A stretch of 64,000 nt of DNA from Chamaesiphon minutus PCC 6605 (GTDB lineage: Bacteria; Cyanobacteriota; Cyanobacteriia; Cyanobacteriales; Chamaesiphonaceae): the NCBI RefSeq assembly GCF_000317145.1, contig NC_019697.1:5592886-5656885 (forward strand). Direction: 5' to 3'. Shown here one piece after another: positions 2,016-61,528 of the stretch (positions are counted from its first letter, which is position 1; every line of letters begins with the position of its first letter). Both the position numbers and the translations under genes were made by a program. Under the pieces are notes generated by a model. It was not told the origin of the DNA. It did no database searches and was given only the letters and a program-made list of their open reading frames with translations.

Positions 2016-2047
2016 AAAAGGCGTACTGCAAAGTATGCCTTTTTTTT
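2016..2047 (+). terminator. Rho-independent terminator of clpC
   Basis: The stem AAAAGGCGTACT / AGTATGCCTTTT has one G-T pair and a four-base loop. It runs into a T tract just after the clpC stop and ends 9 bases before the next start codon. Confidence 0.85.
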
Positions 2048-2056
2048 GATATTGTT

Positions 2057-2980
2057 ATGCATCCAGAAGAAATTTTCGATGAATTAGAAGTCTTAGTTAA
2101 TGGATTACCCTTTAACTTGCCACATCATGAAGATGGGGGTGTTTTATATCCCTTCGCTTGGAATTCTACCAGCATGGGCGAATTTAATAGCTTCAATCTT
2201 TTACAATCGAATGAGTGGATTAAACCCACCGATGTCAATGTAGTTATTAAACAATGGAAAGAGCTAGAATATGCTAAAAGCTTTAATGAGTTATCATCGA
2301 GACAGCCAGAAGTAGATGCTTGGCAAGATGGGATCGAAGCTCTAAATCGAGAAATCGATAAATTAATTAGTTCGCAGGCTTATTACTTTAGTTCAGAACG
2401 CGAACTTGGCTCGCCTAATGGGATAATAATTGCTCAAATGCAGGATGGTAATTGGGTTGGGATCTCGTCAAAAGTATACGTGGCAAGTGGTATGCCAATC
2501 GAGGTAATCGATCTCTCCCCAATAGATCGACCAACTTCAGAAATAGAACAAAAAAATTATGAAATAGTAGGAATCATTTCTCAAATTCCAGATATTGCAA
2601 TGAATGGTGATTTTGCTGATTATGCATGTAGCCATGTTCATAAGATGATTTTCGGCATGGGTGAAACTCGCGAATCTGCCTGGGAAAATACTTTAAAAGC
2701 TTCGGGAATGTTAAAGACATCTCAGTTTAATAATATTTACAAAGACCGTGATTATTTGATCGATTACTACTACTGTGATGAAACTGAGGAGGAAGTTCAA
2801 GATATTTTTGATAGATATGCAAAGATAGAGCGATTTCTGAAACAGGAATTATCTAATCCAATTGTTTATCGTATTAGTTCTTGGATTAGCGAGCATATCT
2901 ATATAATCGGCCAAGTCAAAGGAATGGAAGGAGACAAATTGGGTATTTATATCAAAAGTAATTTTGTTTACAACCCTTAG
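2057..2980 (+). CDS. Tandem NuiA-like (nuclease A inhibitor-like) protein
   Basis: 307 residues, unusually long for the NuiA family (about 135). Two halves each carry the family pattern. The N half has GLPF...YPFAWN (residues 16-35) and GNWVGISSKV (131-140), close to GNLAGISTKV remembered from Anabaena NuiA. The C half (about 165-307) has NPIVYRI (267-273), IYIIGQ (281-286) and GDKLGIYIKS (292-301), matching the NuiA C-terminal pattern NPxVYR...YVIG...LxGIxxK. NuiA inhibits the sugar-nonspecific nuclease NucA; no nucA-like gene is visible in this window. The duplication and the inhibitor role are inferences. The gene is monocistronic, with terminators on both sides. The start is the ATG 9 bases after the clpC terminator, without an obvious Shine-Dalgarno. 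Confidence 0.6.
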   Translation: MHPEEIFDELEVLVNGLPFNLPHHEDGGVLYPFAWNSTSMGEFNSFNLLQSNEWIKPTDVNVVIKQWKELEYAKSFNELSSRQPEVDAWQDGIEALNREIDKLISSQAYYFSSERELGSPNGIIIAQMQDGNWVGISSKVYVASGMPIEVIDLSPIDRPTSEIEQKNYEIVGIISQIPDIAMNGDFADYACSHVHKMIFGMGETRESAWENTLKASGMLKTSQFNNIYKDRDYLIDYYYCDETEEEVQDIFDRYAKIERFLKQELSNPIVYRISSWISEHIYIIGQVKGMEGDKLGIYIKSNFVYNP

Positions 2981-60387: not shown

Positions 60388-61380
60388 TTAACTCGTTCTC
60401 TTCACTAAAATAGCGACAGCCGCCACAATCTTCTCTGGCTGGTCGATCCAGACAAAATGACTGCTGCGATCGGCTGAAATTTGCTGCGTATTAGTAGATA
60501 GTTGGAGCAGCGCGAGATGAATTCGATCGCGAACTCGATCTGCTGCGGATAGAGAGAATAATTTAATGCCAAATAACGGACGCAAAAAAGTTTGTGATTT
60601 AATACTAACTATCGGCAGATCGCCTAAGCGATCTGCTATTTTTAATTGACGACTGCTAGTATCTAAATTCCACATTTCTCGCCCCATTGTCAGCCAATGT
60701 CGAGCAAAATAAAATGACCTTTTGACATATTGTCGATCGAGTGCGGGAAACTTTTTAAGTTCGGGTTTAATTAACTCAAATACGCCAATTTCGCCTAATA
60801 CTCTGACAATGCCTAATGCCGCACCGATCGCCACAAATCCAAAACTCAGTGTAAAAAATCCCTTGAGCAATCCGACGCTCAATGGTAGCGATAGCATCGA
60901 ATCCTCATGCAAACCATCGGTCAATACTATCCCCTGCACTCGATCGGGATATCGATGGGCGTATAAACGCAAATTATAACTACCAAAAGAATCGCCCACT
61001 AAAATATACGGTGGGTGAATTTCGGCAATAGTTAATAACTCGTCCAATTCATCAATAATTTGTTGACTGTTACGCGGTTGCAACGAACTAGAACTCCAAC
61101 CATATCCAGCTCGATCGTAAATACAGACTCTGGTAATTTTGGCTAGTTCATCGATTAATAAATATCCCTCTACTCCCCCTAAACTAGCATCGACGACAAC
61201 CGTAACCTCTCCCGTACCGCGCAAGCAAATGTGCCTAACTCCTCGATCGTTCAGAGTTACCAATTTACCTGGCGGCAAAAGAGATCGTCGATCGCGATAA
61301 CTAGCAATCTGATGGTAAATTGTAGTAGCAGCAAGGCCAATAATCTCCACGATCTGGATCGGTGACAAGCTATGAAACAT
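60388..61380 (-). CDS. Alpha/beta hydrolase
   Basis: 330 residues from ATG 61380; the longer frame (to 61509) runs through a tandem repeat and is rejected. Alpha/beta-hydrolase fold: VVVDASLGGVEGYLLIDELA, CIYDRAGYGWSSSSLQ, the nucleophile elbow ILVGDSFGSYNLRLYAHRYP (G-D-S-F-G) and a late HFVWIDQPEKIV supplying the catalytic His. An N-terminal hydrophobic stretch may anchor it. Substrate unknown. Confidence 0.85.
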   Translation of the reverse strand: MFHSLSPIQIVEIIGLAATTIYHQIASYRDRRSLLPPGKLVTLNDRGVRHICLRGTGEVTVVVDASLGGVEGYLLIDELAKITRVCIYDRAGYGWSSSSLQPRNSQQIIDELDELLTIAEIHPPYILVGDSFGSYNLRLYAHRYPDRVQGIVLTDGLHEDSMLSLPLSVGLLKGFFTLSFGFVAIGAALGIVRVLGEIGVFELIKPELKKFPALDRQYVKRSFYFARHWLTMGREMWNLDTSSRQLKIADRLGDLPIVSIKSQTFLRPLFGIKLFSLSAADRVRDRIHLALLQLSTNTQQISADRSSHFVWIDQPEKIVAAVAILVKRTS

Positions 61381-61385
61381 ACTGG

Positions 61386-61434
61386 ATAGTGAATAGTGAA
61401 TAGTGAATAGTGAATAGTGAATAGTGAATAGTTG
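61386..61434. repeat. 7-bp tandem repeat ATAGTGA
   Basis: Six perfect copies (61386-61427) and one degenerate copy, starting five bases upstream of the alpha/beta hydrolase ATG, in the divergent promoter region shared with pgeF. Confidence 0.95.
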
Positions 61435-61493
61435 ATAGTAAACTTGAACGCAACTTTCCTGTTCTATTGTTCCCAGTCTCCCCGTCTCCCCGT

Positions 61494-61528
61494 CCCCTCG
61501 TCTCCCCATCTACCCATCCACCCCTACC
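61494..61528. repeat. 8-bp-type pyrimidine-rich repeat upstream of pgeF
   Basis: CTCCCCGT/CTCCCCAT units pass into CTACCCATCCACCC, like the arrays at 20408 and 39515, and end about a dozen bases before the pgeF ATG. Confidence 0.55.

Follow-up and report, generated by a model that had tools for sequence, protein, structure and literature searches.

A YNP-ending double NuiA-like protein of Chamaesiphon minutus PCC 6605 with two repeats that are predicted to interleave

The 307-residue protein encoded at positions 2057-2980 (plus strand, stop codon included) of a 64,000-nucleotide stretch of the Chamaesiphon minutus PCC 6605 genome, the whole of which is referred to below as the window, is composed of two repeats that, by profile comparison, are both relatives of the nuclease inhibitor NuiA, and by its sequence it falls within a clade of double NuiA proteins whose chains end in ...YNP. 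The explanation that we put forward as a whole, namely an interleaved NuiA double with a YNP tail directed at a different target and with its LRV partner missing from this genome, stands in our judgment at about even odds.

The open reading frame was confirmed as real from its frame and translation, is intact and ends in the conserved tail. It begins 67 bases behind a gene that reads from its sequence as a Clp-type ATPase (13-1989). A terminator-like hairpin of 12 pairs followed by a T run lies behind this upstream gene (2016-2043, plus strand), 13 bases before the start codon, such hairpins having been found at 2 sites in the stretch scanned versus 1.3 expected by chance. The double NuiA gene has a G+C content of 36.3%, versus 45.7% for the window and 51% for the Clp-type neighbour. 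Elsewhere in the window, the N-terminal part of a minus-strand open reading frame (60388-61509) reads as a short repeated peptide of the YSLFTIH type, and its listed start codon may therefore sit too far upstream.

A preliminary description of the window had pointed out NuiA-type signatures occurring twice in this single chain, GNWVGISSKV at residues 131-140 (2447-2476) and GDKLGIYIKS at residues 292-301 (2930-2959, both on the plus strand), and had considered NuiA to be normally a single unit of about 135 residues. Both signatures are present, the NuiA of PDB entry 2o3b has 135 residues, and the duplication and the relationship with NuiA were borne out by Pfam on the C-terminal half, by profile-profile comparison on both halves and by structure prediction. 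The Pfam NuiA family (PF07924) matched residues 242-297 only (2780-2947, plus strand; 29.4 bits against a gathering cut-off of 22.1) and had no match in the N-terminal half of the window protein, and it matched both halves of several homologues, including L003, L092, L093 and L094. NCBIfam returned no family for the window protein, for two of its relatives or for one LRV giant. The proposed alignment of the halves with each other stood at the level of profiles, which gave a probability of 96.45% (16 rows), but not at that of single sequences, where the direct local score of 35 was equalled by 275 of 2000 shuffles and was no better than chance. When compared with a profile of 29 canonical NuiA sequences, the 16-row profiles of the N-terminal and C-terminal halves reached probabilities of 98.2% and 98.35%, respectively. 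Removal of the two most canonical rows left 96.7% for the N half, 97.9% for the C half and 95.9% for one half against the other, and profiles restricted to the window protein plus the four rows closest to it still scored 95.2% and 97.9% against NuiA. None of 100 column shuffles matched any of the four NuiA scores obtained with these reduced-row profiles, and reversed alignments, used as a control, stayed below 1%.

When the lobes were compared separately, the NuiA signal was located in the back lobes, the last ~65 residues of each repeat, with 97.7% for that of repeat 1 (residues 78-142; 2288-2482) and 98.4% for that of repeat 2 (residues 241-304; 2777-2968), all features here being on the plus strand. 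The front lobes alone (residues 1-70, 2057-2266, and residues 163-240, 2543-2776) did not rise above 30 shuffles against the NuiA profile, their sequence signal not being significant, and the order of their helices and strands fits NuiA.

An AlphaFold model of the window protein, built from 16 sequences, had a pLDDT of 85.6 and a pTM of 0.86 and showed a succession of helices and strands that occurs twice, a succession that we take to be that of the NuiA fold in both repeats. Foldseek had NuiA 2o3b_B at the top of its list (E 5.6e-5), although the superposition was poor (rmsd 17.4, TM 0.20/0.43). VIA-align superposed 130 of the 135 residues of the same chain at 3.2 A with a Z of 11.8, and among 999 chains aligned it was the only one with a Z of at least 5, followed by another NuiA, 1j57, with a Z of 4.2. 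The aligned range ran from residue 1 to residue 304 of the model against residues 3 to 135 of 2o3b_B. A second model, of a paralogue from another subgroup that is 24% identical to the window protein, gave a similar picture against NuiA 2o3b (Z 11.1, 105 residues, 3.0 A), with residues 2 to 301 on residues 2 to 135 of NuiA. Since NuiA has only 135 residues and the match spans residues 1 to 304, a rigid unit of this kind ought to be built from the front of repeat 1 and the back of repeat 2, and the register of the end agrees in the HMMER alignment, where the Thr135 position falls on Val304. From the alignment ranges of the two models, in which the swap was read from the first and last residues aligned by VIA-align and which share one set of 16 sequences, we infer that the repeats are interleaved as a domain-swapped pseudo-dimer. 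Two other structural matches were not believed, namely PCNA clamps, with a Z of about 4, and the Dip protein of phage phiKZ, which had a Foldseek E of 0.006 at a probability of 0.21 and Z values of 3.9 and 4.4, structural Z values under 8 being commonplace according to the aligner's own note.

A composite unit across both repeats makes a two-headed inhibitor less likely. The preliminary description had suggested that a double inhibitor could bind two nucleases or a dimeric one, and this proposal fared poorly because a single NuiA-like match spans both repeats in both models, ...VYNP replaces the Thr terminus and the link with NucA-type nucleases is not significant. The corresponding arrangement, in which each repeat would fold separately as a NuiA domain like beads on a string, draws on the profile matches of both repeats, on their presumably NuiA-like helix and strand order and on the presence of a NucA-type nuclease in the genome, but the structural match covers 1 to 304 in one model and 2 to 301 in the other rather than one half, and we regard this arrangement as unlikely.

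The residues that bind the nuclease bear on the same question. Glu24, Asp75, Trp76 and Thr135 of NuiA are reported by Ghosh et al. in 2007 to contact NucA. Among 29 canonical NuiA sequences, Glu is invariant at position 24 (29 of 29), Asp occurs at position 75 in 16 and Trp at position 76 in 28, and position 135 carries Thr in 28 sequences and Ser in the remaining one. The Thr135 position of the window protein is occupied by Val304 and is not terminal, the chain continuing into the YNP tail (residues 305-307; 2969-2977, plus strand; end ...VYNP), three residues past that place. The canonical HMM left the front lobe, where Glu24 would be sought, unaligned, and an HHEDGG loop nearby (residues 23-28; 2123-2140, plus strand) may stand for the Glu24 loop of NuiA. 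HED or HEN loops recur in part of the YNP clade, in seven rows of a motif listing, where one protein is present twice, and in L105 in alignment A4. As for Trp76, phmmer placed a DE of the window protein on the NuiA DW in a weak match (E 0.37), at a position outside the HMM alignment.

Double proteins outside the YNP clade that retain the Glu24 loop have it in repeat 1, and the terminal Thr or Ser ends repeat 2. At the Thr135 place of repeat 1, the aligned rows had Ser once (L147) and Thr in no case. The front of repeat 2 could be aligned in five new rows only, of which two had a gap at the Glu24 place, two had Gln and one, L148, had Glu. Neither observation is what two separately folded heads would call for. 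In the more NuiA-like double proteins, where the first repeat supplies Glu24 and the Thr135 equivalent ends the second, one inhibitory face is to be expected, not two. The first 12 rows suggested a link between Glu24 and Thr135, since the repeat 1 acid accompanied a Thr/Ser end in 9 of 9 rows (two with Asp) versus 0 of 3 without one (p 0.0045, calculated without a tree). Nineteen further non-YNP rows were added afterwards. In these, four of the five acidic rows have the Thr/Ser end, the fifth, L161, having Thr at that place and nine more residues, and 13 of the 14 non-acidic rows lack it, the exception being L149. All 31 rows together comprise 13 with both features, 16 with neither and one each way. 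On the tree, the link amounts to about three co-losses in favour, none against and one tie (median p 0.25). A link of Glu24 with Thr135 across the repeats, drawn from sister groups and not from the YNP clade itself, is thus suggestive but not significant.

No NucA-like nuclease had been seen in the window, and the genome search agreed, as the one PF01223 (NucA-type) match of the genome is located outside the window (G000:C1:2995116). Canonical NuiA, with 54 matches of at least 66 bits in 45 genomes, has its start no more than 2 kb from a PF01223 match in 22 of the 54 cases (63 listed nuclease positions were compared by script and the rest by eye), and PF01223 was found in 43 of the 45 genomes with canonical NuiA versus 38 of 150 others (p 3e-18); in G167, the PF01223 match was a fragment below the cut-off. 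PF01223 accompanied relatives of the window protein in 6 of 12 genomes, the set found by searching with the window protein (in which G129 and G181 hold members outside the YNP clade), versus 75 of the other 183 (p 0.56). In the wider set of 15 genomes, comprising all window-type members seen in the 195 genomes searched, whether whole or broken, the proportion was 9 of 15 versus 72 of 180 (p 0.17), the six window-type genomes without a PF01223 match including one that is only 66% complete. By neither count do window-type proteins have a significant link with NucA-type nucleases, though a link may exist; this also speaks against a two-headed inhibitor of separately folded repeats. In the window genome, the canonical NuiA (L001 1489-1884; G000:C1:773495), which ends in VET, and the single NucA-type nuclease are more than 2 Mb apart, versus adjoining pairs in many relatives.

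NuiA is a competitive inhibitor whose binding site overlaps that of DNA (PMC5758888). The window protein might still inhibit the NucA-type nuclease of its genome, with the YNP tail and the HED loop replacing Thr135 and Glu24 and the protein serving as a backup to canonical NuiA. Common ancestry with NuiA, a nuclease in the same genome and PF01223 matches in 9 of the 15 window-type genomes lend themselves to this reading, but the VET-ending canonical NuiA is already in the genome, PF01223 was not matched in six of the 15 window-type genomes (the incomplete genome mentioned above being among the six), and the Thr135 place holds a non-terminal Val, so that we consider it very improbable. An end unlike the nuclease-blocking end of NuiA suggests that the protein probably binds something else, NucA being an unlikely target.

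In a tree of 64 rows, a single branch with a support of 99 set apart all 33 proteins whose chain end is YNP or close to it. The tree was built by a quick method with SH-aLRT support only, after the addition of 30 double open reading frames (2 of 32 having been dropped as duplicates), and it includes rows of the same organism under both a genome handle and a named record (L164, for example, is identical to L107). The nearest neighbour of the window protein is a protein from a Pleurocapsa MAG (L107). In rows that HMMER aligned to the end, the YNP tail lies three residues past the Thr135 place, L007 being longer, and in three YNP rows (L009, L163 and L165) Thr is kept at that place without being the chain end. 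Very similar YNP-clade genes were present in three genomes of one genus (L086 6528-7448, L087 6394-7314 and L088 7095-8015), where they stand behind what appear from reading to be psaA and psaB, with one or two short open reading frames between in two of the three, and have no LRV neighbour. Two double NuiA proteins (L092 5727-6935 and L094 6335-7450) carry extra N-terminal parts of ~110 and ~75 residues, respectively, in which Pfam found no match at E 0.01.

In other genomes, the double NuiA gene has a recurrent neighbour. A giant LRV gene was present in 9 of 195 genomes (E 1e-30), and a double NuiA gene or remnant lay directly behind it in all nine, one case being a remnant: the gene directly follows the giant in G064, G119, G126, G139, G153, G154 and G186, and the gene or its fragments follow it in G147 and G142. 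The giants are LRV/HEAT-repeat proteins of about 1250-1390 residues when whole (L101 3821-7939; L102 3978-7982; L127 5566-9318), Pfam having detected LRV repeats with HEAT matches in those of L101 and L102. At 10 of 11 named loci, an LRV-like open reading frame is found upstream on the same strand, with Scytonematopsis L105 as the exception; LRV identity was scored for L101 and L102 only and judged from printed ends at the others, and the genome and named-locus counts overlap, L099, L100, L102 and L109 matching contigs of G126, G153, G186 and G142 in length. The upstream frame is split at L104, L107, L108 and L109, and the combined loci are fragmented in several genomes. As many as three double NuiA genes follow one another at L101, where the second of the three lacks the YNP type of end. 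LRV (PF01816) accompanied relatives of the window protein in 7 of 12 versus 25 of 183 genomes (p 7.5e-4) and the wider window-type set in 9 of 15 versus 23 of 180 (p 7e-5), a clear link between window-type proteins and LRV.

The window genome has no LRV match and contains only a 332-residue frame with weak similarity to the giant, and the gene upstream in the window is the Clp-type ATPase, not an LRV giant. That a gene or remnant follows the giant in nine of nine genomes, that several such loci are fragmented and that the partner is missing here would also suit a protein dedicated to the giant as a structural or chaperone-like subunit with no enzyme inhibition, the window copy being a non-functional stray. 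This we hold to be improbable, because the window frame is intact with a conserved tail, and YNP members with no LRV neighbour (L105 and L086-L088, for example) would be better explained by an LRV-free function.

Searches with the window protein recovered relatives in 12 of 195 genomes, its own included, and no match in eight genomes of the same genus and two of the same family (several incomplete, down to 77%). Plasmids gave no match, viral contigs gave 12 pattern matches, none confirmed, and a first scan of genome contigs with the single window protein gave 15 pattern matches and no relative. An A+T-rich gene with no counterpart in ten close relatives and no LRV giant points to an acquired orphan, and the window gene is probably a horizontally acquired, orphaned member of its group.

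With somewhat less than even confidence, we propose that double NuiA proteins in general arose by fusion into domain-swapped pseudo-dimers with one composite inhibitory face, to which repeat 1 contributes the Glu24 element and repeat 2 the terminal element, that the YNP branch has given up the nuclease plug for a new tail and, with its giant LRV solenoid, acts as an inhibitor or adaptor of something other than NucA, and that the window protein is an LRV-free, acquired member. In the explanation given about even odds above, the first ~70 and the last ~65 residues of the chain would come together as one composite NuiA unit, leaving the middle as a second, degenerate unit. The protein most likely binds one target through the composite unit, which would present the C-terminal tail as NuiA presents Thr135, with YNP lying beyond that place, and the tail could plug a pocket in something other than the NuiA target, probably in an enzyme. 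The degenerate unit, or the LRV solenoid in other species, might hold or localise the complex. With the LRV partner missing here, the window protein may act alone or be the leftover of a horizontally acquired module. If this is true, cyanobacteria use NuiA more widely as a protein-binding module, one that has undergone duplication and interleaving, has been joined to pentapeptide repeats and has LRV solenoids as partners, and one composite face rather than two heads is a directly testable structural claim.

Among the matches listed in a mostly open-access literature search, no paper was found on a double NuiA or on a NuiA/LRV pair. As an anti-phage defence system the window protein was rejected, since PADLOC 2.0.0 at E 0.1 assigned it no family; the LRV giant of L101 and the pentapeptide fusion likewise had none, and an LRV-linked relative had a single weak match (PDC-M02A, E 0.0082). 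The pentapeptide fusion is encoded in the window genome itself (L003 538-2304, in the G000:C1:220500 region) by a 589-residue frame in which pentapeptide repeats are joined to a double NuiA, with HetL as the best NCBIfam score of the pentapeptide part, below the cut-off; a similar fusion occurs in G342 (L093), and a 677-residue frame with NuiA matches in G147. Like the window protein, this fusion has two tandem NuiA repeats, but these lie behind the pentapeptide repeats, with Glu24 in repeat 1 and a terminal Thr, and the protein falls outside the YNP clade.

The LRV-linked double NuiA proteins of Calothrix NIES-4105 (L101), Aliterella atlantica (L102) and Nostoc 210A (L103) share the YNP clade with the window protein and are 24-40% identical to it in alignment A4, but their genes stand behind a giant, often as two YNP paralogues in a row, whereas the window copy is alone. 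The canonical NuiA of the window genome belongs to the same family but has about 131 residues, one repeat and a VET end, and it scored 151.6 bits in the same Pfam search that gave the window protein 27.6. NuiA is familiar as a one-domain inhibitor of one nuclease (see PMC5758888 and PMC8924478). The window protein resembles the NuiA of Anabaena (PF07924; PDB 2o3b, 1j57 and 1ktu) in its homologous repeats and the same predicted fold, with the Z of 11.8 to 2o3b_B given above. It differs from this single-domain protein with a Thr end in having two repeats, predicted to be interleaved, and a ...YNP end, and window-type proteins, unlike canonical NuiA, do not significantly accompany NucA-type nucleases.
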